A stretch of DNA of 64,000 nt from a virus. The DNA is taken from IMG/VR virus record IMGVR_UViG_3300012936_000005, positions 21,043 to 85,042 of that record; one strand, given 5' to 3'. Position 1 is the stretch's first letter; the number at the start of each line of letters is the position of its first letter. Of the stretch, positions 313 to 23,527 are shown in pieces. The notes under the pieces were generated by a model. It did no database searches. It was not told the DNA's origin and was given only the letters and a program-made list of their open reading frames with translations. A program made the position numbers and the translations under genes.

Positions 313-957
313 TTATTCCTCCTCAACTTTATATACTTCTTCAAAACTAGGTCGATTATAAATTTGATCTATGTTTTTTCTATCATAGGGCACACTTTTC
401 ATAGCATTAGTTCTAGGATCTAAATATTCTAGTTCGTTACTAGCATATCCTACTCCTAATATTAAACGTATAGGATTATCGACTCCGAACAGTTCTGCAC
501 ATCTTTCAGGATCATGACTGCAATTTTGTGTTATACCTGTGCTAAGTCCTCTATCTTGTAATGCTAACATTATAAATGCGGCTTGAATACCAAATTCTAA
601 ATGGTCATATCTATCAACAGCCGTTGATGTTCTGTTATAAAATTGGTATTGTACTTCTGCTTTAGTAACATCTCTTTGTGAAAATCCAATTAGATAAGGT
701 GCTAGAACTTGCGGATTACCATAATCAGTTTCGATAGGCATTTCATCATTGCGATGACAAATTGTCATTATTTCTTTTCTACGATTAGGCTCATCATTCT
801 TAATACATTTAATAACAAAAGGATATTTTAGATTTTTTGTAGGAGCTTGCATATAAGCATCATACATTGCATCTTTTATTAATTGTACATCTACTTCCTT
901 TGTATAATCCCAAGTATAAGTATTAGTCCTTGCTTTTATTACATCGTTAAATTGCAT
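313..957 (-). CDS. Nitroreductase-like flavoprotein
   Basis: A 214-residue protein with the nitroreductase (NADH:FMN oxidoreductase) pattern. The N-terminal KARTNTYTW and later QAPTKNLKYPFVI correspond to the family's Arg-rich FMN-contact segment and its APS-x-x-N-x-Q-P-W motif. The segment around HLEFGIQAAFIMLALQDRGL corresponds to the dimer/FMN helix, and DNPIRLILGVGY is the usual C-terminal strand. The frame is open 32 codons further upstream, but I chose the ATG at 957. It has an AAGGAAA site six bases ahead, and the family similarity begins there. The start overlaps the stop of the radical SAM gene by 11 bases. Family members use FMN and NAD(P)H to reduce or dehydrogenate small molecules or, in some peptide-modification pathways, to oxidise azolines. 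Which applies here is unknown. The assignment is moderately sure. Confidence 0.7.
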   Translation of the reverse strand: MQFNDVIKARTNTYTWDYTKEVDVQLIKDAMYDAYMQAPTKNLKYPFVIKCIKNDEPNRRKEIMTICHRNDEMPIETDYGNPQVLAPYLIGFSQRDVTKAEVQYQFYNRTSTAVDRYDHLEFGIQAAFIMLALQDRGLSTGITQNCSHDPERCAELFGVDNPIRLILGVGYASNELEYLDPRTNAMKSVPYDRKNIDQIYNRPSFEEVYKVEEE

Positions 958-2062
958 TAAGTTTCCTTTTTGGTATTTTTGAATCTGCACTTGAAACACA
1001 ACTTTCAGTGATACAAGGCATTGCTTTTTCAAACAGTTTAAATCCTGTTTCAATATTTCCTAAAGGAACATCACCGCAACTGTAACTGCGTTTTATACTA
1101 CCGTCTGGTTCACGTATAATTATACCTTGATATCCAGCATTACAATTCCAACCTTTAAACTTGTTAAAATTGAAAGCATTGAATCTTTCTGCTTGATCCA
1201 TATAATATTTATTGCCCTTACTATCTTCCATTTCTACTTGAAAGTGAGGAGGTATAGTTTCTTTTGTATTAAACTCACTCCACTTTTTAAATTTAGCTTT
1301 TGGTCGGTCTGCCCATTTACGTTTGTTTTCTGTATATGCACGTTGAGGCATACCATTATGTAATTTCGCTAATTGTTCTTCCGTATAACCATCAACAACA
1401 AAACTAGCAGTAGGATCACTTTGTGGCTTTAGTGTTACATTAATTCCTTGTTCATGGAAAAACAGTGCATTATCCCAATCCCTTTCAAACCAAGCAGGAA
1501 CCATTACCATGTTTATTGTAACCTGTACATCATGCTCTTGGCAAAATATAAGTTTGTCTGCAAACTCCTGCATTTTTACAGGTGTGTTTACGTGTTCAGT
1601 ATGTAGACTTGCAGTAATACTAGCTCTATGAAATGCTTTAGCATATTCAACATAAGTTTCAAACCAATTAATTTTACGTGAACAATTTGATGTCATATGT
1701 ATACTTGTATAATTTGTATTTTCTACGTCATCGGCGAGATATTTGAGAATGTCCAAGTATCCTGGATGAAAGGTAGGCTCACCCCCTGACAAAGAAAAGT
1801 GAAATGAATTGAAACCGTTTCCTCTGGCTTGTCGCTTGATTTCGTCAATAGTTCGAAGACACAACTCGGTTGGTCTGTGATCTTTTCTGTCACTTCTTGC
1901 GTATGGCCAACAGTAGCTACACCTATAATTACAAAAGCGACCAAGCAACCAACTAACCGTAAATACGTCACGATAGAGCAAAGTGCGTTGGCCCACACTG
2001 ACAATATCCTCAAGTGGTATTTTTGTAAAGTCATAATTACTCCATTTTAAATCTTGAGTCAT
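947..2062 (-). CDS. Radical SAM protein, class A (RS1)
   Basis: A 371-residue radical SAM enzyme. The [4Fe-4S]/SAM-binding CNYRCSYC lies at residues 44-51, preceded by SWLLGRFC, and the SAM-contact motif SGGEP at 92-96. The C-terminal third has further cysteines (WNCNAGY, YSCGDV, MPCITESC) that could bind an auxiliary cluster as in SPASM or twitch proteins. It is a paralogue of the gene at 4103-5275: both share FxVSWxLGRxCNYxCxYC, the GGEPTxxP motif, and a WxC segment after FKGW. It stands apart from the rest of the cluster by 39 bases that contain a sigma70 promoter. That promoter's -10 box ends five bases before the ATG, so the message is probably leaderless. No good Shine-Dalgarno site is present. 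The substrate is unknown. Confidence 0.92.
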   Translation of the reverse strand: MTQDLKWSNYDFTKIPLEDIVSVGQRTLLYRDVFTVSWLLGRFCNYRCSYCWPYARSDRKDHRPTELCLRTIDEIKRQARGNGFNSFHFSLSGGEPTFHPGYLDILKYLADDVENTNYTSIHMTSNCSRKINWFETYVEYAKAFHRASITASLHTEHVNTPVKMQEFADKLIFCQEHDVQVTINMVMVPAWFERDWDNALFFHEQGINVTLKPQSDPTASFVVDGYTEEQLAKLHNGMPQRAYTENKRKWADRPKAKFKKWSEFNTKETIPPHFQVEMEDSKGNKYYMDQAERFNAFNFNKFKGWNCNAGYQGIIIREPDGSIKRSYSCGDVPLGNIETGFKLFEKAMPCITESCVSSADSKIPKRKLNAI

Positions 2063-2067
2063 AGTTT

Positions 2068-2096
2068 ATTATAGCACCTTATGTTAATTTTGTCAA
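2068..2096 (-). promoter_or_regulatory. Sigma70-type early promoter for RS1
   Basis: On the minus strand TTGACA (2096-2091), a 17-base spacer and TATAAT (2073-2068) match the bacterial sigma70 consensus exactly. The -10 box ends five bases before the ATG at 2062, which puts the predicted transcription start on or next to the start codon. Its first 15 bases, TTGACAAAATTAACA, are identical to those of the gp55 promoter at 50341. Confidence 0.85.
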
Positions 2097-2101
2097 TCAT
2101 T

Positions 2102-3043
2102 TTATAACTTCTCTTTGATAAATTGATCTCTTTTATTTTCTTTACATACTTGTTCGCAACGTGGTATTTTGTTTTCTGCTGTCCAACTATTTTTTATATC
2201 AGTCCAAACTTTTCCGTTCATAGCCTCAGCAATACTTACATTAGATAAGTTTATATCTGTCATATAATCTTGTTGTTCGAGTATATCTTCAAATTTATCA
2301 TGCTTATGTCCACTGACAGGATACTCTAGCATTTTAGAATTTAAATGACAGCAAGGAATTACGTTGCCCATATGATTCACAAAGATACGTTTTTGATTAG
2401 CATATTTACAGCTAATACAATTAGATTCTTCTACTTCAGTTTTTTTATGTTTTACGCCGCCTGTGTCTTTCCTATGACTTATTATAGTTTGAAATTTTAC
2501 AAACCCTTCCTGCTTGGCTAGTTCTCTTGCTTCTTCTAATTGGTGTTCATTATGTTCGAAACTAATAAATTGCCAATTTGATTTTCCTCCTGCCGCGATA
2601 AATGCCCTATAGTTTTGTTGTACTTTTTTAAAGTTTGATCCTTCTCTATATCTTTCTGATAATTCATCACTACCATCTATACCCCAAGTTACTCTGTGCG
2701 AAGACGGTAAAATGTTTGCTAATTTTTCCCACCATTTTGTTGTGCGTAAACTACCGTTAGTAGCAATATTAATATGTGCGTTCCAGTCTGCAAAATGTTC
2801 TATAATTTCGTGGAACTGAGGATGACTACAAGGCTCATCTACACTACCACAGAAATTAATTATCTTGATATTAGGAAACATTTCTTTTTGAAACTTTTCT
2901 TTAATAGTATTAAGATCTAAATACGTCTTGTTTAAGATTTTGTCAGCATGATCAGAAATAACACGGAAACAGCCTTTGCAACGAATATTACAAAAACTTG
3001 TAAGTTCTATGTCAATCCATTCTAGTGTATCAGTTGTTAACAT
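2102..3043 (-). CDS. Radical SAM/SPASM-like protein, class B (RS2)
   Basis: A 313-residue radical SAM enzyme with CNIRCKGC at residues 18-25. The usual GGEP is replaced by CGSVDEP at 65-71. The C-terminal region carries CISC, then PCC after a GNVIP turn, and a final PRCEQVC, a SPASM-like cysteine set for auxiliary Fe-S clusters. With RS6, RS7 and RS8 it forms a paralogous class with a shared central block: an FxAAGG-x-x-x-WxFIxFxHNEHQ segment and a CGxxxDP-type SAM motif. The start ATG shares a base with the upstream stop (TAATG), indicating translational coupling. It is the last gene before the internal promoter at 2068-2096. Which molecule it modifies cannot be told. Confidence 0.92.
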   Translation of the reverse strand: MLTTDTLEWIDIELTSFCNIRCKGCFRVISDHADKILNKTYLDLNTIKEKFQKEMFPNIKIINFCGSVDEPCSHPQFHEIIEHFADWNAHINIATNGSLRTTKWWEKLANILPSSHRVTWGIDGSDELSERYREGSNFKKVQQNYRAFIAAGGKSNWQFISFEHNEHQLEEARELAKQEGFVKFQTIISHRKDTGGVKHKKTEVEESNCISCKYANQKRIFVNHMGNVIPCCHLNSKMLEYPVSGHKHDKFEDILEQQDYMTDINLSNVSIAEAMNGKVWTDIKNSWTAENKIPRCEQVCKENKRDQFIKEKL

Positions 3044-4110
3044 TATTCAAAGCACCACGGTATAGTTTTTTTACTATTTGTTCCTCTTTTTGCATCTAGA
3101 TCTAATAGATACCTTTGCATAGTTGCATTACCCTCTTTATCAAATTTATAATCTTTATAGAATGTTTTAAGCTCTTGTACTTTTGTTAATTGTAATACTT
3201 TCTGCACAACATGAGGCTTCAAACAATTTACAGATAGAAAATTAGGACTATAAAGTTTATGTATATCATAAGTACCATTCCATTTTCTCCGTATCTTTGT
3301 TACTACTTTATCTACGTTTGGCAAATTCATTGCTTGTACAGTAATATTAAAACTAATATTCATAGGATTTAGATCTACTAATTGCTGAGTATCTCGACAA
3401 AATATATCATGATGTGTAGGAAATCTAATTAATTCGTTAACAGAACCCCAGCCGTCTATACTTACTGAAAAAGTAAGTCTTTCAAATTTTTCTAATGTTT
3501 TTAAAAAACTATCTGTGTTACTTACACCATTAGTTTGTATTTGAATTTCTGTATGCTTACGATTCCATTCATGTTCTGATAATAACTTACAAAATCGTTG
3601 AACACCTTTCATATAAAAAGGCTCTCCACCTGCAATATATATTTTTACAGCTTTATCCTTGCATCTTTCATATACCCAATCCCAATCTAAAGACTCCCTA
3701 ACCTGTCTAAATTGATCAATATTGCCTGTACGGTATTTAGAATATACATCTAAATCTTCATACCATTTACTACTATTACCAGGATTACACATGGCACATT
3801 TTAAGTTACAAGTGTTTCCAGGACGTAAATCCCAAACAATAATTCCCTTATCACCTCTAAGTAAACTCTGCTGTCGCTTACTTTCTCTACCCATAGATTC
3901 GTTCATTACACAGTCATTACATTCAGGTCTTTTCCAATCTCCTTTAAATCTTTCTCTGACTTCATTTATATAATCATTATCTAACAATTCATTTATATCT
4001 TTTACAGTATGTTTTCCTTTTTGCTTGAAAAGACAACAAGGCGTAGTAACATAGCCGCTGTCTTTTTTTTGTATATATAAACTGTTAATTGATTCTAAAC
4101 AATTATGCAT
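3043..4110 (-). CDS. Twitch-domain radical SAM protein, class C (RS3)
   Basis: A 355-residue protein of the twitch-domain radical SAM type. The N-terminal region has a cysteine set (C4, C25-C26, C64 and C67) ahead of the core, as is typical of twitch proteins, where an auxiliary cluster lies before the barrel. The core has CNLKCAMC at 101-108 followed by NPGNSSKW, and AGGEP at 160-164. Paralogues in this window are RS5 (5265-6665) and RS9 (11691-13058), which share the N-terminal cysteines, the SSKW/SSGW sequence after the radical SAM motif, and an FNI/FNV-x-x-x-x-Q-A-x-N segment. This one is the shortest of the three. It ends at PWCFE, so a last cysteine sits three residues from the C terminus. 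It overlaps the upstream gene by eight bases. Confidence 0.92.
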   Translation of the reverse strand: MHNCLESINSLYIQKKDSGYVTTPCCLFKQKGKHTVKDINELLDNDYINEVRERFKGDWKRPECNDCVMNESMGRESKRQQSLLRGDKGIIVWDLRPGNTCNLKCAMCNPGNSSKWYEDLDVYSKYRTGNIDQFRQVRESLDWDWVYERCKDKAVKIYIAGGEPFYMKGVQRFCKLLSEHEWNRKHTEIQIQTNGVSNTDSFLKTLEKFERLTFSVSIDGWGSVNELIRFPTHHDIFCRDTQQLVDLNPMNISFNITVQAMNLPNVDKVVTKIRRKWNGTYDIHKLYSPNFLSVNCLKPHVVQKVLQLTKVQELKTFYKDYKFDKEGNATMQRYLLDLDAKRGTNSKKTIPWCFE

Positions 4111-5275
4111 TTAACACACCAGTGTCAAAATGTGTTTTGACTGTTTGTAAATATTTTTCTTTAAATTTGCTTTTAGGAGCACACAACCCACAACCACAAG
4201 TATGCTTAGGGCAAATCATTGTTGGCATGGTTTTCGATTCTAATTTATGTTTAAGCTCTGCAATAATTTTTTGTCCTTCACTAATTTTTCCAATTGGTCC
4301 TCTAGTACCGTCAAAACGAGCTTGACAAGTTTGATGATGAAACACTTGATCAGTTTGTTGTTCAAGATGTAAAAAGAACCAGTTTACACTACAATGCCAA
4401 CCTTTAAATTCACGCATGTTAACAAAATTACTTTTTTTACTTGTATCTCCAGAACTTAAACACATTTCTCTTCCGCCGCAACACGGTCTTCCTAGACTCA
4501 TTCCTAATTTTTTCTTTTCGGTTGTTTTTTCGCCTACTGCACTTAACTTATCGTTGTTCAATCCTTCTTCTTTGTACTTCCAATAATTTTTAATAAAATC
4601 TAGTTGATCGTCAGTGTATTTGTGTGCAAAACTAGGTTTGCTATCAGGCTCTTCACCTATTATTCTTGGCACATACCACACACCTAATTGATCTAACCAC
4701 TTGCATAATTCTTTGCACTCGTCAAAATACTGTGCATGAAACATTACATTTACTTTGAATCCAAAATACTTTTTACCGTTAGAATTTTTTGCGGCTTCTG
4801 ATGCTGTATGGAATTGCATAATTCTATCTTTTATTTGATTTTTAAGTTTTTGATCTGCTTCAGTATGATAACTTAGTGTAACAAAACTCATCTTGTCTAT
4901 AATTTGTTGAGCAATTTTAGGACCCATTGCTCCGTTGCTTGTAAGAGAGAATCCAGTGTGCCATCTATCTCTATATCTTTTGTTATATTCTTCTTTTAAG
5001 TATTCAATAAAAGGAATAAAGTTGGGGTTGACTGTAGGCTCTCCTCCTGTAAAACTTATACTTGCTTCTTTAAAATCTCTGTACTGCATATACGTGTCCA
5101 TATATTCAAATAAAAAATCAACACTAGACTTCAATTGATCTAGTGTAGCATGTGGACTAAAATTATCGTGTCTTGTTACTGGGCAGTACGTACAGTCATA
5201 ATTACATCTGCGACCAAGATCCCATGAAACTTGGAATAAATTTCCTGTCAATAAATCTACAGTATCAAAGCTCAC
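4103..5275 (-). CDS. Radical SAM protein, class A (RS4)
   Basis: A 390-residue radical SAM enzyme with CNYDCTYC at residues 24-31 and TGGEP at 76-80, a paralogue of RS1. The C-terminal half is unusually rich in cysteine: PCCGGREMC, WHCSVNW, HHQTCQ and finally CPKHTCGCGLC. This resembles SPASM-type binding of one or two auxiliary clusters, with CxxxxCxCxxC at the end. RS1 has a reduced version of this tail, so the two may differ in auxiliary clusters. Start and stop overlap the neighbours by 11 and 8 bases. The reaction and substrate are unknown. Confidence 0.92.
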   Translation of the reverse strand: MSFDTVDLLTGNLFQVSWDLGRRCNYDCTYCPVTRHDNFSPHATLDQLKSSVDFLFEYMDTYMQYRDFKEASISFTGGEPTVNPNFIPFIEYLKEEYNKRYRDRWHTGFSLTSNGAMGPKIAQQIIDKMSFVTLSYHTEADQKLKNQIKDRIMQFHTASEAAKNSNGKKYFGFKVNVMFHAQYFDECKELCKWLDQLGVWYVPRIIGEEPDSKPSFAHKYTDDQLDFIKNYWKYKEEGLNNDKLSAVGEKTTEKKKLGMSLGRPCCGGREMCLSSGDTSKKSNFVNMREFKGWHCSVNWFFLHLEQQTDQVFHHQTCQARFDGTRGPIGKISEGQKIIAELKHKLESKTMPTMICPKHTCGCGLCAPKSKFKEKYLQTVKTHFDTGVLNA

Positions 5276-6665
5276 TGAAAATATCCTTCATTTCAGGAAA
5301 AGTTTCTGCAAAAGTATTCCCGCGTTGAGTGTCGCACCTTTTTAGAAACTCTTGCATTTCTGGCAGACGTCTACTCCAATCTTCACTTTCCATAAAATTA
5401 AGCATACCTTTTAGCCTTTTAATCCCATAGCTTGCTTGCATGAAGTCGTCTTTTTGTACTTTACCTTTGTGCCAACTAGGAATTCCTAGTTCCCAATTTT
5501 CTTCCCACCAAGGATAAAATTCTTCATATTTCTTACGGCACTCAGCCTTAAACCAATTAGGCAAAACTTTTACATTTAAGTGCGGTGGATGATATACAAA
5601 GTGATAATTCACTCCTCCTGCACCAAATGGCCACATGTTAATTTTTTTAAATCCTTGTGTCAGTTTCCATTTTATAAAATCGGGTATATAGTAAATGTTG
5701 AGTGCTTGTACTGCACAAGCCACAGTAACTTCAGTGTTGTTAGGTGTATCATTATCTAGTATATGAAAAACTTCTTCCTGTCTTTTCCATTTACTAGGAT
5801 AACGAATATATTCATTCATTTCTTTTATGCTATCAATGCTGTAATGAAAACGAACTAATTTAAAATGTTTCCATAGGTCAAACAAATCTTCGCGCCATTC
5901 AACTCCATTACTATTATACCTAAGCTCTAAATTTTTAGCATATCCCATTTTAATAGCATGTTCAAGTATTTCATAATGTTCTTCAATAATTAAACTTTCG
6001 CCACCAGCAAAATATATCTGTTGCATACTTGGCATCTGCTCGTAAAATTGTTTCCAGAATGTAGGATTTTGTTTGTGCCAATTATAACTACTTCCATTTG
6101 TACTACCTTTGTCTTGCCACTGCATTGTTTCTTTTAGTGATTCATTTTTTACTGCCGGAAACATTGCTTTCCAATCTTTAATCCAACCTGAACTATCGTG
6201 AGGTGAACACATTACACAAGCAAGTTGACACTTGGTTCCAAATCGTAAATCAATATATGCTAACTGAGGAGGTACGCTACCATCTTCTTTTGTGTTCTCT
6301 AAAAGATTATCTACATCAACACGCTCACTCCAATATGCTGTTTCCCACATACGTTTACTGTTATGACCAGCCGCTTCTTCTTTGAAACATTTTATACAAC
6401 TAGGTGGTACTTCTCCGTTCAGCATTTGTTTACGTACATTACGCATATATGTACTGTTCCATGCTGTTTCAAAATCACTTACATTAAGATTATTAGGACG
6501 TCCTTCTTCATCTTTAAGAATTCCAACTTGGCCGCCATGCTCTTTGTCATTAGTTGGTCCTACAGAACTTGCGTTCGCTGTACAACAAACTCTCATACTT
6601 CCGTCTGGTCTTGTGCTTAGGTGTACCCACGGTAGGATACAAAATGTATCTGAAACTTTACTCAT
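5265..6665 (-). CDS. Twitch-domain radical SAM protein, class C (RS5)
   Basis: A 466-residue twitch-type radical SAM protein. The N-terminal CILPWVHL (C9) and DGSMRVCC (C27, C28) followed by SCIKC (C90, C93) form the auxiliary-cluster set of this family. The core has CQLACVMC at 146-153, SPHDSSGW right after it, and AGGES at 220-224 in place of AGGEP. An HYSID segment and the FxVACAVQALN segment align with RS3. It is the longest of the three class C proteins. The extra length is mainly the C-terminal tail, which is rich in Trp and charged residues. Eight bases separate it from the gene upstream and it overlaps the gene downstream by 11 bases. Confidence 0.92.
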   Translation of the reverse strand: MSKVSDTFCILPWVHLSTRPDGSMRVCCTANASSVGPTNDKEHGGQVGILKDEEGRPNNLNVSDFETAWNSTYMRNVRKQMLNGEVPPSCIKCFKEEAAGHNSKRMWETAYWSERVDVDNLLENTKEDGSVPPQLAYIDLRFGTKCQLACVMCSPHDSSGWIKDWKAMFPAVKNESLKETMQWQDKGSTNGSSYNWHKQNPTFWKQFYEQMPSMQQIYFAGGESLIIEEHYEILEHAIKMGYAKNLELRYNSNGVEWREDLFDLWKHFKLVRFHYSIDSIKEMNEYIRYPSKWKRQEEVFHILDNDTPNNTEVTVACAVQALNIYYIPDFIKWKLTQGFKKINMWPFGAGGVNYHFVYHPPHLNVKVLPNWFKAECRKKYEEFYPWWEENWELGIPSWHKGKVQKDDFMQASYGIKRLKGMLNFMESEDWSRRLPEMQEFLKRCDTQRGNTFAETFPEMKDIFSEL

Positions 6666-6673
6666 ATATGTAC

Positions 6674-7699
6674 TTATCGTGTTATAGTGGTGGTTAATTG
6701 ATGTACTGGCTCAAATCGTTGTGTAGAAATCTTATTTTCTTTGCAATTTTCTATACACTTAGGAAAAATTCCGCTTTTAATATTATAGAATATATTAGTA
6801 TACCATTCACTATCAAATATATCCTGTATGCTGTTTGAACCGTTTAATCTATGATGTTCAGAGCCATTTTCTTTGCTGTAAAGATCCCATAAATCTTTGA
6901 ATCCGCTTTTTGTTCCCCACCAACAACACGGTACAACATATCCTTGATGCGTAATATATAAACCTTGATCATCTATTTTACTACTGATGCATTTTGGTAA
7001 AACTTTAGGCAACACGTCAAAAGTTTCTCCTTTTGGATCTTTTTTATGTTGACTGTTCTCTCCAAAGTTTTTACGTGGGCTACCAATAAATTTAACTCTA
7101 TGAAATCCTTCTTTTTTTGCTATGTCTTCTATTAAGTTAGCTTGGTGTTCATTGTGAGCAAAGAAAATAAATTGCCATATTGCACAGCCGCCGGCCGCAA
7201 TATATGATCTAAAATTATTTTGTGTTTTTTTCCAGTCAACATTTACTCTGTAAATATGGTTAGTATCTTCAAGACCATCTAAACCAAAATTAACATGTAA
7301 TCGCCAATTATACTTCTTTGAAAGTTGTCCTAATTCTTTCCAGAATTCTGTATTACGTGTTCCGCCATTAGTAGAAACAGTAATTTTTGGTTTGCTAGGA
7401 AATAATTTATCATTTTCGAAAATCCATTTTATAATATCTAATAAGTCTGGATTAGTAGTAGCTTCGTCATAATTACCACACATATGAATAAGTCTTAGAT
7501 CAGTCCATACATCTTTGGATACCCAACTTTTAAATTTTTCTAAACTGACGTATGTGTCATTTATAGTAATCCTATAGTCCATATCTGCCGACCAGTCACT
7601 TACAACTGCTCTTGCACAGGCAGGACATGCGGCATTGCAATAATTTGACATTTCTATTTGTAATTTTGTTTGATTTTTAACAGGTATTTGCCAACTCAT
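6674..7699 (-). CDS. Radical SAM/SPASM-like protein, class B (RS6)
   Basis: A 341-residue radical SAM enzyme with CNAACPAC at residues 21-28 and CGNYDEA at 74-80 in place of GGEP. The class B block is present (DTNHIYRVNVDW, then SYIAAGG and WQFIFFAHNEHQ). The C-terminal half carries KCISSK, PCCWWG and KCIENC, a SPASM-like auxiliary-cluster set in which PCC follows a GYVVP turn. The last proline of the usual xGDP motif is an alanine here, a small departure from RS7 and RS8. It overlaps RS7 by four bases. Confidence 0.92.
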   Translation of the reverse strand: MSWQIPVKNQTKLQIEMSNYCNAACPACARAVVSDWSADMDYRITINDTYVSLEKFKSWVSKDVWTDLRLIHMCGNYDEATTNPDLLDIIKWIFENDKLFPSKPKITVSTNGGTRNTEFWKELGQLSKKYNWRLHVNFGLDGLEDTNHIYRVNVDWKKTQNNFRSYIAAGGCAIWQFIFFAHNEHQANLIEDIAKKEGFHRVKFIGSPRKNFGENSQHKKDPKGETFDVLPKVLPKCISSKIDDQGLYITHQGYVVPCCWWGTKSGFKDLWDLYSKENGSEHHRLNGSNSIQDIFDSEWYTNIFYNIKSGIFPKCIENCKENKISTQRFEPVHQLTTTITR

Positions 7700-8742: not shown

Positions 8743-9806
8743 TTGAACTGCTCTGCAAACGGGTCAAACTCTGCACCACACTTCATAGCACAAACTTTTA
8801 ATTTTCCTTCTCCGCAAGTTGGCTTCGACCAACTATCTTGTATTGTGTTAAATATACCTGTCTCAAAAACTTTATCTAATCCAGAACGTGCATCTAATGC
8901 ATTTTTGTTAGGAATAAAGTCCCATATTTGTTCTACTTTAGGATCTTTATGCCACCACTTGTACATGCGTCCTGCTGTCCAACAACAAGGCAAAGCTAAA
9001 CCTTCTGCTGTTATATATAAACTATTTTCTTTTTTAACTTTACATATAATAGGAGCCGCATCATAATATGCATCCATACTACCATATTTTTTAATAATAA
9101 TGTCTTGTTTTTGTAATGCTTTATTTTGATATTTTTTATCAGGTTTTCTTAATTGTGTTGTTTCTTTACCTTTCTTATCAACTGCTTGATGTGATTCTTT
9201 TTTCTTACTATCTTGTGTAATAAAACGTCCTGTCTTTTTTGCAGTAAATTTTTCAAAACCTTTTTGCTTACTTAATTTTTCTGCTTCTTCTACTTGATGT
9301 TGATTGTGTTCAAAAATTAAAAAGTCCCAACGAGCTCGACCGCCTGCTTCTATAAAAGCGTCCATACTACGCTCTACATTGTTCCAGTTAACGCCTTGGC
9401 GATATAAATGATTAGTATCACGAAGACCATCAACGCTAAAAATAACAGACCCCATCCGACCAAAAATTGTTGCCAGGTTGCTCCACCATACTTCATCTCT
9501 TGCTCCTGCATTTGTATTCATACTTAGCCACATGTTTTTATTGTGTTCTCTAAAGTATGCAAATATTTCTAATGTATCTCGTGCAACAATAGGGTCACCT
9601 AGATTGCCACACATATACATAGTGTCAAGTTGCTTGATAAATTTAGGAGAAAATATCTTCTTACAATCTTCTAATGACAATTCATCTAAATTAATATGTG
9701 GATTTACACCTTGACCGTTACAATTTCTATCACACATAGGACAAGCCGCCTGGCAATTTTGTGTTACCTCTAGATGTATAGTTTTTATGTCTTTGTAAAA
9801 ATACAC
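8739..9806 (-). CDS. Radical SAM/SPASM-like protein, class B (RS8)
   Basis: A 355-residue radical SAM enzyme with CQAACPMC at residues 18-25 and CGNLGDP at 66-72. The shared block reads TNHLYRQGVNW, then FIEAGG and WDFLIFEHNQHQ. The C terminus has IICKVK, LPCCWT and GKLKVCAMKC. A lysine-rich insert (around DSKKKESHQAVDKKGKETTQ) lies between the core and the SPASM-like part and is not seen in RS2. Translation starts at a GTG at 9806, which shares its first base with the TAG of the upstream gene (TAGTG), so it is probably translated by coupling. Confidence 0.92.
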   Translation of the reverse strand: MYFYKDIKTIHLEVTQNCQAACPMCDRNCNGQGVNPHINLDELSLEDCKKIFSPKFIKQLDTMYMCGNLGDPIVARDTLEIFAYFREHNKNMWLSMNTNAGARDEVWWSNLATIFGRMGSVIFSVDGLRDTNHLYRQGVNWNNVERSMDAFIEAGGRARWDFLIFEHNQHQVEEAEKLSKQKGFEKFTAKKTGRFITQDSKKKESHQAVDKKGKETTQLRKPDKKYQNKALQKQDIIIKKYGSMDAYYDAAPIICKVKKENSLYITAEGLALPCCWTAGRMYKWWHKDPKVEQIWDFIPNKNALDARSGLDKVFETGIFNTIQDSWSKPTCGEGKLKVCAMKCGAEFDPFAEQFK

Positions 9807-10327
9807 TATGTTAGTACCCTTTGCATTGATAAAACTATTTTTAATTGTGATGTATAAAATGCATCTACTCCATGATATCCGTTAGCTATATACCATGCGT
9901 CAGCATCTAAATATTTGAAGTGTAATCCGTTTTTGTTTTTAATTACTGCTATATTTTTTAAATGTGCATCTTGATTAACAAAAAATCTGTTATCGTTCCA
10001 TTCACTACTTAATCCCATTGATGCTGTCCATGTATGATTAATACATTTGAACAGTCTTATATAATCTGCTTTAGTTAAGACTTTACTCTTATGCGGTTCT
10101 AATAGTTTGTACAAATCTGTTTCGATGCCCTCTAAATATTCCATTGAGTATGTATGCTCATCTATTAAATCTATTATCTTTACAATATGAGGAGTTCTAT
10201 TTTGCAGATTTTTATAACAACGAAACCATTCTTTAGTAAGTGGCTTTCTTTTTAGAGTCTTAATTAAAATATTATTTTTAGTATCATGTACTATCCTAGA
10301 TACATCTGTGTTCCATATTTCTTTCAT
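9806..10327 (-). CDS. Small protein-kinase-like (phosphotransferase-fold) protein
   Basis: A 173-residue protein with a reduced kinase-fold pattern. SMEYLEG at residues 61-67 looks like the hinge, NQDAHLKNI at 118-126 like the catalytic loop (D120, N125), and LDADAW from 140 like the metal-binding DFG-equivalent. The glycine-rich N-lobe loop is not obvious and the protein is much shorter than a full kinase, so it could be a degenerate or minimal aminoglycoside/lipopolysaccharide-kinase-like enzyme. It sits between RS8 and the methyltransferase-like gene with one-base overlaps (TAATG/TAGTG). A role in phosphorylating a sugar or peptide intermediate of the same pathway is possible but is inference. 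Confidence 0.55.
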   Translation of the reverse strand: MKEIWNTDVSRIVHDTKNNILIKTLKRKPLTKEWFRCYKNLQNRTPHIVKIIDLIDEHTYSMEYLEGIETDLYKLLEPHKSKVLTKADYIRLFKCINHTWTASMGLSSEWNDNRFFVNQDAHLKNIAVIKNKNGLHFKYLDADAWYIANGYHGVDAFYTSQLKIVLSMQRVLT

Positions 10328-11028
10328 TATTTTACGCCAATTCTCATAAATCTATTATACTTTGGCAACTCTAAGGATCCTGAATAAAAGCAGTCCATCA
10401 TTGGAGATTGTTCTTTAAATTCCAAAGGATTTTTTACACAATTTACGTGATCCTTCACATCGAAAAAATTGTTAGATTGTAAAACAACTAAGGTACCATT
10501 TGGTATTTTTTCATACCACTTATTAAATTCTTTGATATGTTCACAACTTGTATTGATCACAGTATCAGGACAATCTGTTATATCTCTACTCATTCTGTTA
10601 TTAGCTTTGCTCCAAGTTTGCCAAGTATGTTTATTATAATCAATATCCATTATATCTTGCGTTATTGCTTTGAATTGCCAATCTTTTTTTACTTGATTGC
10701 GATTTATTGTATCTGCTATTTCTAAACAACTATCGTCTATGTCAAAACTTCTAATTTTATCTATTGAGCAACGACTTCTAAACAACATGGCCGCAAGTGT
10801 AGCATACCAACCAGCACACAAAAATACAGTTCCTAATGGCACATCAATATCTTCTAAAGTGTTAACTAACCATCTTTTGCTTTTAAGTTGTCCCCAACTT
10901 AAAGCATCTGTCAAATCAGCTTTATGATTATCCACAGCATTACGCAAATTATTGAATATAGGATTGTCAGTTAGAACTAACATCCTTCCAAAAATATCGT
11001 TATCGTCTTTCCAATTAATGCTCATCAA
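10327..11028 (-). CDS. Probable class I SAM-dependent methyltransferase-like protein
   Basis: A 233-residue protein. VFLCAGWYATLAAML at residues 68-82 resembles the glycine-containing motif I, RSFDIDD at 93-99 the acidic motif II end, and NTSCEHI plus NGTLVVLQSNNF the later motifs of a Rossmann-fold methyltransferase. The G-x-G-x-G of motif I is weak (AGWYA), so the activity is uncertain. It overlaps the glycosyltransferase-like gene upstream by 14 bases and the kinase-like gene downstream by one. In this cluster it would most simply methylate a sugar or peptide product. Confidence 0.6.
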   Translation of the reverse strand: MMSINWKDDNDIFGRMLVLTDNPIFNNLRNAVDNHKADLTDALSWGQLKSKRWLVNTLEDIDVPLGTVFLCAGWYATLAAMLFRSRCSIDKIRSFDIDDSCLEIADTINRNQVKKDWQFKAITQDIMDIDYNKHTWQTWSKANNRMSRDITDCPDTVINTSCEHIKEFNKWYEKIPNGTLVVLQSNNFFDVKDHVNCVKNPLEFKEQSPMMDCFYSGSLELPKYNRFMRIGVK

Positions 11029-11698
11029 ACTTTTTCCTTAGCCATTCAAAATCATTTATTAACCCAAGATCAGCCCCGCTAGAAAGGCCAAACTGCATAC
11101 CATCCCTAGCACCTCTAATCGCAAATTCACCAAACTCTCTATCGTGTCCCACGGTTGTCCAAGTTTTAAGTCTTCCATTTGTTTCTTGCTCCTTTTGTCT
11201 ATCTATTGTTTTACTTGATAGTTTAGCACATTCTCTAAAAGCACTTTTCCAAGTATTAAAAGGATCTGTGTTGAATGCTGTTATATTACTTACTTCGTTC
11301 ATAACTTTAAATTTATCACTTATGCTTGTAGTCATATCGTTAGTATTTGTATCCATATTTTTTGTTAATGTAGTTGGAAATAATTTTACACCTCCATAAC
11401 CATAAACAAGATCATTAATTGGATTCATACATCTGTATACATGAACTAGATCCTTTTCTTCTGTAGTGTATCCAAAATTAAATTCATCTACAATTACAGC
11501 ATCTCCATCAACTACATAAAAGTAACTTGAGTTTGCAAGTTTGGCCGCTTCTACATGTGCGTTATGAATGCCTTTAACATCTTTTACACGTTTTACTCTA
11601 TCACCAAATACTCCGACAGTATTGAATCTTGAATAAAGATTGTTATAATTTTCTTCTGCATTTGGTTCGTGATAGCTTATAAAAATAATATCATACAT
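11015..11698 (-). CDS. GT-A-like protein (putative glycosyltransferase), copy 1
   Basis: A 227-residue protein starting MYDIIFISYHEPNAEENY, with VVDGD at residues 62-66 as a candidate metal-binding DxD motif of a GT-A-type nucleotide-sugar transferase. It is a clear paralogue of the gene at 13058-13978: both share the IxxxSYxEPNAExNY start, a VDGD motif, a YGxGGxKxxP stretch and a C-terminal VGxDxxxGxxAIxGARxG block. It overlaps RS9 by eight bases. The family occurs next to radical SAM genes in marine T4-like phages, but I know of no demonstrated activity. Confidence 0.65.
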   Translation of the reverse strand: MYDIIFISYHEPNAEENYNNLYSRFNTVGVFGDRVKRVKDVKGIHNAHVEAAKLANSSYFYVVDGDAVIVDEFNFGYTTEEKDLVHVYRCMNPINDLVYGYGGVKLFPTTLTKNMDTNTNDMTTSISDKFKVMNEVSNITAFNTDPFNTWKSAFRECAKLSSKTIDRQKEQETNGRLKTWTTVGHDREFGEFAIRGARDGMQFGLSSGADLGLINDFEWLRKKFDEH

Positions 11699-13058
11699 TT
11701 TTACAAATCTCCAAAAATTGTTCGTACTCAGGAAAAACCTTTACAAAATTTACATCTCTTCTTTTGTCATATTGTTTTGTAAACCTAAAAAACATTTTTT
11801 GAGCTTCTTGCTGTTCTTTCCAAAAGTCGTCTTTGTTTTTAAGTCTGTGCTCTACATCTGATACAATGCGTTCTAGCTTTACAGTCTCAATCTGTTTGAA
11901 GCCATGATGGTCTGTGTTTTCTTGCATAAATTTTAATGCAGGTTTTAAATAATCATCTACCACTTGTTCATTTGCTATTTTAACATCTAAGAATGCAGGA
12001 TTTCGCACATACGGAATGTCAATTAGTATCCTTTGGTTTCCTGGATGCCTACCCCAATATGTTGACTTTAAATATAGCACCCAGATCAAAAACGACTTGA
12101 ATGTTGGTAAACTATAAATGTTAAAAGCACTCATGAAACTTATTTTACTTGCAGTATGTCTTGCAAAGTATTCGATGTTATCAGTAAACAATCGCCAGTC
12201 CATACCAAATCTACTATATTCTGCTTGAGTACCTGTACTTTCTGCACTTGTGTATAAACAAAATTCTCTAATAGCATTTGAATCTTCTAACTTCTTTATA
12301 GACTTTGTAAATCTTTTCCATAAATCTTTAGGTGGGCATCCATTACTGTTAATTGCAAATTTTAAATTGGGTTGCGGATGTTCAATTAAGTAATCAATCA
12401 CTCTTTGAGTATGTTTACTTAACAGAGGTTCTCCTCCTGTAATACGGAAAGTATGCATATGTTTTACTGCTTCTGGAAACCATTTCCAAAATGCTTCAAT
12501 ATATGGATTATCTTCACGCTCAGGTATAGGCGTTTCGTTAGGATCAATCATATTGTATGCCCAAGTGTTTAAATCATATGGTCCTTTTTGCTTAACTTCT
12601 TCCATCCATTTACTACTAAATGGCGGACCACAATATGCACATTTGAAATTACATACATTACTAAAACTAATTTCTACATATCTAGGATAAAAATCTTCGT
12701 CTCCTGTAAAGTTGCTAATTGTATCGTAATCGCTCCAACTAAACGCATCAGCACTTTTGTAAACTCTATCACTAAACTTATCTGTGTTGTCTTCGATACG
12801 CCAGCAGTAATCGCACTCGCCTGGGCGTTCATTTTTTAGCATTTGCTTTCTTACATTTTTTTTGAAGCCTGTATTATGAAGTGCATTAGGATTTTTTGCA
12901 AGTTCATCTAAATCAATCCTATGTGCTTTTACATGATGACAACTATGATTTATACCTGTGCCTAAGTGAATTGTAACTTGTGTCCATTTGGCAAGACAAA
13001 ATCCGCACCCAACTTTATCTAGTTTTTCTTTAACTTCTATTGGTTCACCTTTAAGCAT
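11691..13058 (-). CDS. Twitch-domain radical SAM protein, class C (RS9)
   Basis: A 455-residue twitch-type radical SAM protein. The N terminus has CGFC (C18, C21), then C40 followed by two histidines where RS3 and RS5 have a CC pair, and CDYC (C82, C85). The core has CNFKCAYC at 136-143, GPPFSSKW directly after, and TGGEP at 207-211. The CHH in place of CC could change the ligand of the auxiliary cluster. It is flanked on both sides by the two paralogous GT-A-like genes, which suggests that the three act in one step or on one substrate. It shares one base with the upstream gene. Confidence 0.92.
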   Translation of the reverse strand: MLKGEPIEVKEKLDKVGCGFCLAKWTQVTIHLGTGINHSCHHVKAHRIDLDELAKNPNALHNTGFKKNVRKQMLKNERPGECDYCWRIEDNTDKFSDRVYKSADAFSWSDYDTISNFTGDEDFYPRYVEISFSNVCNFKCAYCGPPFSSKWMEEVKQKGPYDLNTWAYNMIDPNETPIPEREDNPYIEAFWKWFPEAVKHMHTFRITGGEPLLSKHTQRVIDYLIEHPQPNLKFAINSNGCPPKDLWKRFTKSIKKLEDSNAIREFCLYTSAESTGTQAEYSRFGMDWRLFTDNIEYFARHTASKISFMSAFNIYSLPTFKSFLIWVLYLKSTYWGRHPGNQRILIDIPYVRNPAFLDVKIANEQVVDDYLKPALKFMQENTDHHGFKQIETVKLERIVSDVEHRLKNKDDFWKEQQEAQKMFFRFTKQYDKRRDVNFVKVFPEYEQFLEICKNV

Positions 13059-13978
13059 TAATTTTCCTTATCAATGAACTGCTGGTTGCCGCCTCTGCTT
13101 GGATTTTGATAAACAGTTTTAAAAAAAGAGCTTTGTTCTTCGTTGAGAGGTTGTATTGAAATAGGTATTTCTAAATTGTTTACTAAATCACTTCCGTAAT
13201 TAAAAATTTCTGTATGTAAAACATCTTCGGGCATTTGATCACGTCCTGCCCAGAGATTGTTAAGATATTCAAAGTCTCGTACATTTACATAATCCCAATC
13301 ACTTAACATAGTCATACTAAGTCCTTCTCTGGCTCCTAATATGGCCCAGTTTCCGTTTTGTACATCTGCTCCTACCATTAACCAAATCCATAGTCTATGT
13401 AAATTTTTCCAGTGTCCTTTTAAGAACTCTTCTTTGGTCGGCTTGACTCCTCTGTCAAGTGCCATTTTTACACCTTCACGAAATCCTGCTCGCCAAGCCT
13501 GATGTGGAGTTTCGTTATTATGTACATCTGAATAACAACTGTTTTGTTGAATATACTGTAGGTCCCAACAAAAATCAACCTGTGCAGACTGATTATTAGG
13601 ATCAGCGTTTTCGTGTGTACGCATATTTAACACAAATTCTTTAGGCCAACATTTTAATCCGCCGTTACCATACATCAAACCGTTTATACTATTTTTTCCG
13701 CACCAACTAATCACACTGTTGGCTAAGTCTGTATGTTCGTCAAAATCTAAAACTTGGTTTATAAAATCTTGACGAATTGTGTTATCGCCGTCGACTGTTA
13801 CAAATCTATCTGTTTCTGATAATTCAGCACAGGCTTTATGTGCCGCATCTGACCCTTCTACACCGTGTACTCGTTTTGCCCAAGGAACTTTTGTAAGTAG
13901 ATCAGCATAATTTTTTTCAGCATTTGGTTCGTCATAGCTTAGGTATATTATATCTAATTCTGCAATTTTAACTTTCAT
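13058..13978 (-). CDS. GT-A-like protein (putative glycosyltransferase), copy 2
   Basis: A 306-residue paralogue of the 11015-11698 protein: LSYDEPNAEKNY near residue 13, TVDGDNT at 61-67 as the DxD-like site, YGNGGLKCWP in the middle, and the VGADVQNGNWAILGAREG block. It is about 80 residues longer, with an added C-terminal tail rich in Asn and Gln. It lies between RS9 and an unknown small protein. Likely cytoplasmic: no signal peptide or membrane segment is visible. Confidence 0.65.
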   Translation of the reverse strand: MKVKIAELDIIYLSYDEPNAEKNYADLLTKVPWAKRVHGVEGSDAAHKACAELSETDRFVTVDGDNTIRQDFINQVLDFDEHTDLANSVISWCGKNSINGLMYGNGGLKCWPKEFVLNMRTHENADPNNQSAQVDFCWDLQYIQQNSCYSDVHNNETPHQAWRAGFREGVKMALDRGVKPTKEEFLKGHWKNLHRLWIWLMVGADVQNGNWAILGAREGLSMTMLSDWDYVNVRDFEYLNNLWAGRDQMPEDVLHTEIFNYGSDLVNNLEIPISIQPLNEEQSSFFKTVYQNPSRGGNQQFIDKEN

Positions 13979-14520
13979 TATAACTCCTTATACATACAAG
14001 TTGCCATATCGCAATTAGCGTAAACACTGTATGGTCCTTTTATATTTAAAGGTTTAGATTCGTTCGATGCAATGTTAAATGTAAGTTGTTCATACAAAAT
14101 ATGGGGGTCACCTTTTTTTGTAAAACTAAAACTTATTTCTTTTTGTAGATCAACATTTGTAGTTTTCATTGTATCTAATAGTTCAATACCCGTATTAATA
14201 TAACATCTTTTGGTAACTTTGTCAACAGTCAATAACAGATCGTACATGATTGATTCGTCAACTGGTTTAATTTCAATGAATTTTGCTTCATGTTGTACAT
14301 AGATATTTTTCTTAAGTACAAATTTCTTATCACTACGATTATAAGCAACAACATAGTCTGTCATTTTTTCTTTCAAACTTTTAATAGGTTCTACTTCTTC
14401 TTCAGTAACTTTTATGTGTTGGTATCCTTCTTCTATACTAGGACCTATACTAAAAATTCTTCCAGTCTTTTGATTGAAGCATACATATTGTTGTGTATGT
14501 GTGCTAACGTGATGCATCAT
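13978..14520 (-). CDS. Unrecognised 180-residue protein
   Basis: I do not recognise this family. The protein starts MMHHVSTHTQQYVCFNQKTGRIFSIGP and alternates short hydrophobic stretches with charged ones, as in beta-rich structural or adaptor proteins. It has three cysteines near the end (YANCDMATCMYKEL) and no visible membrane segment. It overlaps the GT8-like gene upstream by 17 bases. Because it is the only non-enzyme-like protein of its size inside the operon, it is a candidate carrier, substrate or small tail component, but nothing in the sequence proves this. Confidence 0.7.
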   Translation of the reverse strand: MMHHVSTHTQQYVCFNQKTGRIFSIGPSIEEGYQHIKVTEEEVEPIKSLKEKMTDYVVAYNRSDKKFVLKKNIYVQHEAKFIEIKPVDESIMYDLLLTVDKVTKRCYINTGIELLDTMKTTNVDLQKEISFSFTKKGDPHILYEQLTFNIASNESKPLNIKGPYSVYANCDMATCMYKEL

Positions 14521-15313
14521 ACTCTCCTATAATATCTTCAGCAAATTTTTGTTCAGTGTAATGAACTATACCATGTTGCATAAAATTTCCTATTTTTAAA
14601 TTAAAGTCTTCATCTAAATAATAAGGTATCCTATCTAACCAGTTTTCTGGAGGGTTTGACCATCCTTGTATTTTACTTTTCATATGTACGAAGCTAGGAG
14701 ACTTTACAGTATAATCTTCTATGTTGTTTTCTAGTATAGCAATAGAATGATTTACATCCATGCTACTTAATTTAGGTATTTGTTTAGGTGCATAAATTTC
14801 ATAATATTTTTCGTAATTTTCACATATGCGATTCAAAGTTTTATAATACTCTAATGCTGTATCATCTTTTTTAAAATAATGAAATGCACAGTAAATGTTT
14901 GGCAGACTATTTGCTGTAAAAGCCTTTCGATAATAATCATTATCAATAAGATGATTTCTGTAATCTCTTACATTAGAAATAAATCCAATACTTTTTTGTG
15001 CAAAATATTTCCACCAGTAACTAATGTCAGATAAAAATATCATATCAGTATCTAACACAACTGTTTCTTCATACGGAGTTAAATGAAATACTTTCCATCT
15101 ATGCTCTGTCTTATAGAAACTTTTTGCGTGTTTGTCGTGCCACGGAACTTCTATAATTTTATCAAATAGTCTTTTGTATCTTCTTGGCACTCTATCACTT
15201 GTAACAAGAGAAATGTTTTTTATAGATTGTGTCTTTTTGATGCTCATCGCACATAAACATGCTTGTAGGACATAATTATCGCCCATAGCAACCATAATAT
15301 ATCCTTTATCCAT
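14504..15313 (-). CDS. GT8-like glycosyltransferase, copy 1
   Basis: A 269-residue protein with the pattern of GT-A glycosyltransferases of the GT8 type. An N-terminal strand is followed by LVTSDRVP, then TPYEETVVLDTDMIFLSD, where DTD (88-90) is the metal-binding DxD. In the rest, NIYCAFHYFKK and SFVHMKSKIQGW match the acceptor-side and C-terminal HxK-type positions of the family. The paralogue is the next gene upstream, sharing the (S/T)PYEx(T/S)xVLDTD block. Family members transfer a sugar from a nucleotide donor. The acceptor may be a phage virion protein or a host glycan. Confidence 0.72.
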   Translation of the reverse strand: MDKGYIMVAMGDNYVLQACLCAMSIKKTQSIKNISLVTSDRVPRRYKRLFDKIIEVPWHDKHAKSFYKTEHRWKVFHLTPYEETVVLDTDMIFLSDISYWWKYFAQKSIGFISNVRDYRNHLIDNDYYRKAFTANSLPNIYCAFHYFKKDDTALEYYKTLNRICENYEKYYEIYAPKQIPKLSSMDVNHSIAILENNIEDYTVKSPSFVHMKSKIQGWSNPPENWLDRIPYYLDEDFNLKIGNFMQHGIVHYTEQKFAEDIIGEYDASR

Positions 15314-16130
15314 TTATAAGTTCTCCTAGACTAAATTTATTCATTACATGAACATTACAGTCTTTTGTAGATGCTAGTATATATTCACCGTTGTATTTTT
15401 CTTTTTGCAATAAAAATGTAAGTGAGTTATCTTTAATTGTTTTTATGAAGTCTCTGTCTAGTGTATAGAACATAGTTCCTGGTAATGTTTTAGCCCAGTC
15501 ACTATCAGTAAATCCGTTCATCATATGGATAGCAATACTAAAGACATGGTCATTCCTAAAATTTCTACTTCCTATGTCATAAACTTGTTCATAGTGGTTC
15601 CAATTTTTAACCAAGTGTTGCAATAGATCAAAAAATATTTTTGTCTCATTTGTTTTTTTAAAACAAAAGCAAGTAGCCCAATAAAACGGAATTCCAGTAT
15701 TGTTTATAAAAGAGAATTCATCATGCTTGCGCCATTCACACAAATCTACTCCGTGCTTATAAATTTGAAAATCATTTTTGCTATCAAAGGCATGTTTTAA
15801 TGAATTATTACAAATTACATAATCTGTATCAAGAACTAATGTGCTTTCGTAAGGCGAAAGATCATAACTTTTTACTCTATCATTATTTTTAAATTGTAAT
15901 TGTTGATGATGCAAAGTACCGTTGTAATAACGTTTGTAATTAGAATTATTATCTTCTATCTCTATTACTTTGTCAAATAGACCAACATTTTGTAATTCAC
16001 TTGCTGTTGAAGTGACCAATGTAGTAGGCAAATCCAAATGTTTTTTCACACGTTCTGCAAGTATTTCTGCTTGCCTTAAATAATCTACTTTTCCGTTATT
16101 GTGTGCAAAACATAATACACCATTAGACAT
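15306..16130 (-). CDS. GT8-like glycosyltransferase, copy 2
   Basis: A 274-residue protein: LPTTLVTS near residue 34, then LSPYESTLVLDTDYVI with the DxD at residues 101-103, and a C-terminal STKDCNVHVMNK segment. It aligns in layout with the 14504-15313 protein but differs outside the DxD block, so the two probably use different donors or acceptors. It overlaps both neighbours by eight bases. It is the second gene of the accessory operon, directly behind the small 16123-16470 gene and close to the tail-fibre genes. Confidence 0.72.
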   Translation of the reverse strand: MSNGVLCFAHNNGKVDYLRQAEILAERVKKHLDLPTTLVTSTASELQNVGLFDKVIEIEDNNSNYKRYYNGTLHHQQLQFKNNDRVKSYDLSPYESTLVLDTDYVICNNSLKHAFDSKNDFQIYKHGVDLCEWRKHDEFSFINNTGIPFYWATCFCFKKTNETKIFFDLLQHLVKNWNHYEQVYDIGSRNFRNDHVFSIAIHMMNGFTDSDWAKTLPGTMFYTLDRDFIKTIKDNSLTFLLQKEKYNGEYILASTKDCNVHVMNKFSLGELING

Positions 16131-16470
16131 CTACTAAACCTTCTACACTACGTTTGGTGCTGAGAATCTTATATTCTTCTAAGTACTTATTTGTTGCATC
16201 TGTATATTGTTGCATTGCTTTTGATACAAAGTCAACAACACTTTCTATTTGTATTGGTGTATTGTTATCATCAACTATGACTGTTTTCTCAATGCCGCCT
16301 TTACTAAGCATAAAAACAAAATTTAGAAGTTCTTTTGTGATTGTAAACTTGCCGTTATCGGAGTACATTACAAGTTCGCCTAAGTATTTCTCGTGTAATA
16401 TACGCTTTTGTGCATTTAGAGTCGCAGTAAAATTTGAAAATTCTAGTGCTTTTTCTAGTGCTTCGTCCAT
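16123..16470 (-). CDS. Small conserved-looking helical protein
   Basis: A 115-residue, largely charged protein (starts MDEALEKALEFSNFTATLNAQK) with a helical N terminus, a short beta-like middle (KTVIVDDNNTPIQIES) and a helical end. No known motif is seen. It is the first gene of the accessory operon after the tail-fibre genes, 36 bases downstream of the 304-residue structural gene, with an AGGAG ribosome-binding site. Proteins of this size beside tail fibres in T4-like phages are often assembly chaperones. That is only a positional guess. Confidence 0.65.
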   Translation of the reverse strand: MDEALEKALEFSNFTATLNAQKRILHEKYLGELVMYSDNGKFTITKELLNFVFMLSKGGIEKTVIVDDNNTPIQIESVVDFVSKAMQQYTDATNKYLEEYKILSTKRSVEGLVDV

Positions 16471-17421: not shown

Positions 17422-17440
17422 ATTACTTCCTTTTTAATAC

Positions 17441-18937: not shown

Positions 18938-18963
18938 TTATTAACCCCTAATTGTGTTATATG

Positions 18964-18971
18964 TATTTATA
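18964..18971 (-). promoter_or_regulatory. Late promoter (TATAAATA)
   Basis: A perfect TATAAATA on the minus strand, 27 bases before the start of tail-fibre-like gene 1. It overlaps the stop codon of tail-fibre-like gene 2. TATAAATA is the T4 late -10 box recognised by gp55, and this phage encodes gp55. Confidence 0.7.
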
Positions 18972-20808: not shown

Positions 20809-20809
20809 A

Positions 20810-23519: not shown

Positions 23520-23527
23520 TATTTATT
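23520..23527 (-). promoter_or_regulatory. Late promoter (AATAAATA)
   Basis: AATAAATA on the minus strand, 18 bases before the 203-residue structural gene, one mismatch from the T4 late consensus. It overlaps the stop codon of the 15-kb gene. Confidence 0.5.

Follow-up and report, generated by a model that had tools for sequence, protein, structure and literature searches.

In pelagimyophages, a host recognition cluster carries cassettes of radical S-adenosylmethionine (SAM) enzymes together with GT8 genes, and its glycosyltransferases (GTs) have been read as changing the host surface (PMC7029224); radical SAM and GT genes are also enriched in Tasman Sea phages (PMC7150976), and a 2017 report assigns 12 radical SAM genes and Fe-S supply genes to the T4-like ocean virus TARA_ERS488813_N000010 (PMC5332604). 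Here we analyse a 64,000-nucleotide window of an uncultured T4-like marine phage (positions 21043-85042 of the 85,042-base (b) virus contig IMGVR_UViG_3300012936_000005; coordinates are those of the window unless marked 'contig'), in which an enzyme island of ~24 kb and ~30 genes starts directly downstream of the tail-fibre genes. Six of these genes, GTA2, GTA1, MT2, RS8B, RS5C and RS1A (Table 1), form a core that is also present on chromosomes of Bdellovibrionia, the class to which some predatory bacteria belong. Shared in this way between phage and chromosomes, the core has the look of an entire, exchangeable pathway that most likely decorates a cell or virus surface, and we tentatively read the island as a self-contained glycoconjugate pathway that probably alters the surface of the infected cell, a proposal whose chances we place somewhat short of even.

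The island resembles TARA_ERS488813_N000010 in pairing many radical SAM genes with Fe-S supply genes in a T4-like marine phage, which the section consulted presents as a gene count, without cluster anatomy, gene order or a bacterial counterpart (PMC5332604). Of the pelagimyophage-type layout, which runs from VrlC to gp14, the window phage shows fibres, GTs and, where VrlC would be expected, a giant protein; it departs from the published cluster (PMC7029224) in its ten radical SAM genes, their conserved order, the core held in common with bacterial chromosomes, and a portal protein whose closest counterparts belong to large phages, among them GAP32 and Munch. Campylobacter phage CP220 likewise carries several adjacent radical SAM genes and two nucleotide-sugar transferases near baseplate genes (26% identity to RS2B), but with fewer radical SAM copies, an amidinotransferase, and no match to RS5C, MT2 or GTA2. 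The fibre-to-VrlC island of Pelagibacter phage Mosig EXVC030M combines MoaA-type radical SAM genes with MT2-like, nitroreductase, 2-oxoglutarate (2OG) oxygenase, desaturase and aminotransferase genes, the last being ArnB-like and counted toward sugar chemistry, whereas its radical SAM similarity is 25%, a carbamoyltransferase is present, and GTA2 finds no match; indeed, neither GTA2 nor U3 has a match in cultured phages. Multi-radical-SAM T4-like phages are therefore already reported, and the chromosomal core and the promoter pattern described below are new; we found no link between radical SAM/GT phage islands and Bdellovibrionia in the open-access literature.

A six-gene core on Bdellovibrionia chromosomes

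A scan of bacterial genome contigs returned RS8B relatives in Bdellovibrionales, adjoined by RS1A, RS5C and MT2. Across 144 Bdellovibrionia genomes, RS1A occurs in 15 (57-68% identity) and RS5C in 13 (55-64% identity), all of the latter being RS1A carriers (p = 1e-16), while strong RS8B, GTA and MT2 homologues are found in 16, 11 and 30 genomes and each co-occurs with RS1A (p = 2e-16, 4e-11 and 9e-9, respectively); the pairwise values for the core range from 1e-5 to 1e-16 and overstate independence because the genomes are related. The core is contiguous in several of these genomes, for example in G130 (contig 7, 143-149 kb), where cellular genes occupy its flanks, and neither a profile search with the window phage's genes nor inspection by eye recognised a phage structural or tail gene around it. 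Quick, arbitrarily rooted trees of RS1A and RS5C, the latter built with a simple model and carrying a long-branch warning, agree in placing a marine-phage clade with Bdellovibrionia, separate from a second phage clade, and this agreement indicates that the genes probably moved together.

The presence of the core in both phage and bacteria makes it unlikely that the common substrate is a phage fibre. A preliminary description of the locus had named a cluster far from tail genes and tied to an unrelated metabolic pathway as a finding that would speak against decoration of fibres or a surface glycan; half of that picture is what the chromosomes present, in that no tail or phage gene could be recognised there around the core. 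Base modification is within the reach of phage GTs and 2OG enzymes, and the island could in principle serve DNA hypermodification against restriction, a function that we consider highly improbable. DNA protection has been named as a role of GTs in lytic phages (PMC7150976); however, none of the cluster's genes was recognised as encoding a base-modifying or DNA-binding enzyme, and its core also resides on bacterial chromosomes.

Several further features of the bacterial loci were recorded. Tad pilus genes lie near the core in at least two genomes (RcpC, secretin and prepilin peptidase in G156; Tad in G161), with Tad/Flp sites close to it at L284 2129-6757 and L273 18802-20000, and several pilin-like neighbours gave no Pfam match. 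The MT2 family, present in twice as many genomes as RS1A, has a life outside the core, and solitary RS8B homologues occur on gammaproteobacterial metagenome-assembled contigs (L183 2880-4010, near uvrB-like and aminotransferase-like genes, and L179 474-1613).

Radical SAM classes and substrate indications

The nine radical SAM genes first noted in the cluster are all found there as open reading frames (ORFs) on the minus strand (947-13058), and all nine products match PF04055, six of them above the 29.5-bit cut-off (RS1A, RS4A, RS2B, RS3C, RS9C and RS5C) and RS6B, RS7B and RS8B below it (23-26.6 bits, E 1e-4 to 8e-6). The exact CX3CX2C cluster-binding motif is present in each, as well as in a tenth, B12-binding enzyme beyond the left window edge. 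The division into three classes holds: class A (RS1A, RS4A) carries CNYxCxYC and GGEP; class B (RS2B, RS6B, RS7B, RS8B) has a CG....[DE][PA]-type motif in place of GGEP and a WxFIxFxHNxHQ-type stretch in common; and class C (RS3C, RS5C, RS9C), with N-terminal cysteines, passes the curated 170-bit cut-off of NCBIfam NF033640, 'twitch domain-containing radical SAM protein' (N_Twi_rSAM), a name that carries no function. Loss of the radical SAM cysteines from most copies in relatives, which the preliminary description had named as a finding against its decoration proposal, is not what we observe: 451 of the 452 homologues of these nine proteins retain the motif, most auxiliary cysteines are conserved near 100%, and N-terminal cysteines are kept at 98-100% in RS5C and, for four of five, at 97-100% in RS9C. 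The dN/dS ratios of the radical SAM genes are 0.04-0.27 where dS is measurable and unsaturated, and such purifying selection, together with a gene order that recurs in dozens of further contigs, argues that the island is not a chance assembly.

The solved relatives point both ways with respect to substrate. A profile of RS8B finds its best solved relative, over part of its length, in cytosylglucuronate decarboxylase (BlsE, E 1.6e-5), which acts on a sugar nucleoside, whereas the nearest solved relative of RS5C is the peptide maturase SkfB, and a joint GT8a/b profile, with an invariant DxD, matches glycogenin-1 (E 1.1e-5), an enzyme that glucosylates a protein; Pfam gave no single-protein match for a window GT8 gene. 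Foldseek matches of the GTA1 model are nearly all nucleotide-sugar transferases but weak (TM ~0.4), and GTA1 was therefore given no GT family; those of MT2 include NodS, CmoA and RebM. A sequence search of the PDB with the GTA, MT2 and U2 proteins returned nothing useful, U2 has no trustworthy structural match, the hits of U3 to syntaxin and NTF2-like proteins look like chance, and KIN has no credible Pfam match.

The island in phages

The island genes are co-directional on the minus strand and mostly overlapping, with gaps of -46 to +8 b from U3 to the left edge, except for the 39-b gap before RS1A. The span given in the preliminary description, 313-16470, captures part of this unit, which runs ~7.9 kb past the left edge of the window to contig position 13132 on the same strand and in the same overlapping style. 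The extension encodes a 2OG-like protein, U1, a TauD dioxygenase (95.5 bits), an aminotransferase-like protein, the B12-binding radical SAM enzyme, five more 2OG-type proteins, one of which exceeds the Asp/Arg hydroxylase cut-off (25.9 bits) while the remaining 2OG labels were assigned by eye, and the methyltransferase-like MT1. A convergent block follows, with a 2OG-like gene, a nitroreductase, a RIO/APH-like kinase and a sulfotransferase (31.9 bits), and a fatty acid desaturase lies more distant. Within the window, the two GT-A, two GT8-like and methyltransferase companions noted earlier are present, with the caveats that the nitroreductase scores below its cut-off and the kinase was recognised by motifs.

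This mixture of radical SAM, 2OG, aminotransferase-like, nitroreductase and methyltransferase enzymes resembles natural-product clusters, and the island might instead make a diffusible small molecule or modified peptide that either leaves the cell at lysis or acts within it. The resemblance of the B12-type enzyme to KedN5-type C-methyltransferases (below cut-off) and the amidinotransferase beside the radical SAM genes of CP220 are in keeping with such a product; yet no small precursor gene fits into gaps of at most 39 b, no exporter was seen, and four GTs point to glycans, which leaves this explanation decidedly improbable. A cluster for a ribosomally synthesized and post-translationally modified peptide was set aside on the same lack of room, although a longer protein, for example U2 or U3, might serve as the precursor.

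Viral relatives share the gene order TF-U3-GT8b-GT8a-U2-GTA2-RS9C-GTA1-MT2-RS8B-...-RS5C-...-RS1A, although genes have been gained, lost and in places rearranged; G009 retains almost the entire island, its left part included. Forty related records hold 1 to 23 PF04055 matches each, and 5-23 per contig are common, so that the number of radical SAM enzymes, called unusual for one phage in the preliminary description, is unusual among cultured phages but not within this lineage; a T4-like ocean virus with 12 was already on record in 2017 (PMC5332604). Up to 23 matches per phage contig is nonetheless a remarkable concentration of demanding enzymes. The record with 23 (G015) has a similar arrangement and, by eye, also carries UDP-sugar-dehydrogenase-like and short-chain dehydrogenase/reductase (SDR)-like genes. 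Its SDR-like gene (L308 8725-9288, that is, G015 28725-29288; start MKILIAGNPDYGLAKS) is similar to genes adjoining the core in L185 and L291 and is possibly another shared gene. In Vibrio phage K566 (L245 8612-19074), a few genes separate radical SAM genes from the gene of a PagP-like lipid A acyltransferase, which hints at lipid A chemistry.

Promoter pattern and the place beside the fibres

As first described, the cluster lies beside the tail fibres: a co-directional fibre gene stands upstream of the GT block in 35 of 37 informative viral loci, at a median distance of 403 b. The virion itself could accordingly be the target, its tail fibres or other baseplate proteins being glycosylated, hydroxylated, crosslinked or methylated to shift host range or evade defence, as previously suggested. 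The GTs would be cytosolic, without membrane parts, and have no late promoter of their own, which makes read-through from the late promoter of TF2 likely; GT8 and RS5C have protein- and peptide-directed relatives; and the Tad pilus near the bacterial core is also a filament. Against this reading stand the persistence of the core in bacteria without phage fibres and the sigma-70 promoters of the enzyme genes, and we judge virion modification, the chief competitor of the cell-surface reading, to be unlikely, though far from negligible.

The late-promoter motif NATAAATA is rarer in the contig than expected by chance (12 observed versus 52 expected under a simple Markov model). Of these copies, eight sit 5-42 nt upstream of an ORF, including TF5, TF2 and gp6; in relatives, the motif falls within 70 b of TF2 in 28 of 32 cases and almost never at GT8, GTA or RS9C. 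Perfect or near-perfect sigma-70 promoters, on the other hand, precede gp55, gp47 and RS1A in the window phage and are found in relatives at U3 (20/41), GTA1 (17/91) and RS1A (7/84), with in-gene controls giving 3, 0 and 0. The -10 box ends 5 nt before the ATG of RS1A in the window phage and mostly 5-6 nt before that of GTA1 and RS1A in relatives, a proximity that suggests leaderless transcripts at both genes. Judging from these motifs, the enzymes may be made early, with additional late read-through from TF2. Because the fibre promoters are of the late type and the enzyme promoters of the sigma-70 type, enzymes and fibres need not share their regulation, which weakens co-transcription as proof of fibre decoration.

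A putative surface glycoconjugate pathway

We favour a cell-surface glycoconjugate because the pathway persists without phage fibres, includes at least four GT-type enzymes, and has sugar or lipid A genes nearby in related phages. In the proposed mechanism, the GT8 and GT-A enzymes would transfer sugars to a cell-envelope acceptor, such as a lipopolysaccharide-type glycan or a surface or pilus protein, while the radical SAM, 2OG, aminotransferase, methyltransferase and sulfotransferase enzymes would build or tailor unusual residues; in the phage setting, the product would change the infected cell's surface, leading to receptor masking and superinfection exclusion. Such a change would explain the island's place in the host-recognition region beside the fibres. 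Sugar chemistry is supported by the glycogenin-matching GT8 profile, the GT-A-type model, the BlsE relationship of RS8B, the sulfotransferase and the sugar genes of G015.

Several findings weigh against a surface glycoconjugate. The tight tie to the fibres and the likely read-through from TF2 mean that fibres could be the target after all; several relatives (e.g., G009 and G021) have no strong sigma-70 sites at the enzyme genes; and sequence cannot separate sugar from peptide substrates, as the SkfB relationship of RS5C illustrates. Furthermore, simple hydropathy reveals no convincing membrane segment in the core or GT genes (none above a Kyte-Doolittle value of 1.7), and we saw neither a membrane protein nor a flippase or lipid-carrier enzyme in the core, which sets it apart from classical O-antigen conversion by gtr-type phage cassettes with their membrane flippase and lipid-carrier GT. 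The original proposal of fibre or surface-glycan decoration is thus borne out in part: fibre adjacency and the kept cysteines agree with it, whereas the chromosomal core and the differing promoter types do not sit easily with its fibre half.

A more ambitious version, which we regard as doubtful, holds that gene transfer has given marine T4-like phages and Bdellovibrionia a common, undescribed multi-radical-SAM pathway for a new kind of surface decoration; in phages, this pathway would be expressed early from sigma-70 promoters, in some cases likely on leaderless transcripts, and re-coat the infected cell against rival phages. If true, surface decoration would introduce a new type of chemistry into the competition among phages, and perhaps into the biology of Bdellovibrionia, whose core offers a cellular setting for gene deletion and product search that uncultured phages cannot provide.

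Gene map and neighbouring features

Gene coordinates are collected in Table 1. The start of NTR was revised from 1053, where a TTG start alone caused a 107-b overlap with RS1A, to a likely ATG near 958. TF1, TF3 and TF4 are called fibre-like from position and sequence.

Table 1. Features of the enzyme island and its surroundings
Feature	Coordinates	Strand	Basis or remark
Fatty acid desaturase	contig 7780-8361
Convergent block	contig 11011-13142
B12-binding radical SAM	contig 16839-18359	-	CX3CX2C
2OG6, 2OG-oxygenase-like, 252 aa (N-terminal piece in window)	1-312 (full: contig 20596-21354)	-	label by eye
NTR, nitroreductase-like	313-958	-	PF00881 19.3 bits, under 23.5 cut-off
RS1A, radical SAM class A, core	947-2062	-	PF04055 52.2 bits; 56-67% identity to five Bdellovibrionia chromosomal copies
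Gap (39 b), perfect sigma-70 promoter	2063-2101	-	TTGACA-17-TATAAT, TG before -10
RS2B, radical SAM/SPASM class B	2102-3043	-	PF04055 39.0, SPASM 26.3 bits
RS3C, twitch radical SAM	3043-4110	-	NF033640 194, PF04055 38.6 bits
RS4A, radical SAM class A	4103-5275	-	PF04055 44.5 bits
RS5C, twitch radical SAM, core	5265-6665	-	NF033640 421, PF04055 32.5 bits; chromosomal copies 55-64% identical
RS6B, radical SAM class B	6674-7699	-	PF04055 26.6 bits; intact CNAACPAC
RS7B, radical SAM class B	7696-8742	-	PF04055 23 bits; CNAACPGC
RS8B, radical SAM class B, core	8739-9806	-	PF04055 23-26.6 bits; profile to BlsE
KIN, kinase-like (APH-type)	9806-10327	-	motifs by eye: NQDAHLKN, LDADAW
MT2, class I methyltransferase fold, core	10327-11028	-	AlphaFold2 pLDDT 91.5; Foldseek
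GTA1, GT-A-type glycosyltransferase, core	11015-11698	-	AlphaFold2 pLDDT 90.2; invariant DxD
RS9C, twitch radical SAM	11691-13058	-	NF033640 302, PF04055 34.1 bits
GTA2, core	13058-13978	-	paralogue of GTA1, 36% identity
U2, conserved, no function assigned	13978-14520	-	alignment
GT8a, glycogenin-like (GT8) transferase	14504-15313	-	joint GT8a/b profile
GT8b, glycogenin-like (GT8) transferase	15306-16130	-	joint GT8a/b profile
U3, small conserved protein between fibres and GTs	16123-16470	-	conservation
TF1, fibre-like	16507-17421	-
TF2, tail fibre	17441-18937	-	phrog_19602 match
T4-type late promoter TATAAATA, upstream of TF2	18938-18971	-
TF3, fibre-like	18967-20808	-
TF4, fibre-like	20810-22891	-
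Single ORF of 5024 aa in VrlC position	23523-38597	-	VrlC label from size and position
SufE-like Fe-S sulfur carrier	54064-54468	+	102.8 bits (cut-off 27)
CST-I-like sialyltransferase	62195-62794	+	weak, 17.1 bits (cut-off 25)

The T4-like nature of the phage is shown by homologues of baseplate proteins, the late sigma factor, gp46/47 and the tape-measure protein; its portal protein most closely resembles the portals of large phages, for example Phosso, GAP32 and Munch (47-52% identity), and the contig is therefore likely a fragment of a larger genome. The SufE-like gene directly follows gp46 and may be an accessory that feeds the radical SAM enzymes; the idea that SufE generally partners the island in Fe-S supply was rejected because just one of 31 related records has it. 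The weak sialyltransferase match lies beside gp20. Finally, class B radical SAM genes also occur outside the island, beside gp46 and in some cases gp20, in L039, L060, L069, L073 and L090.

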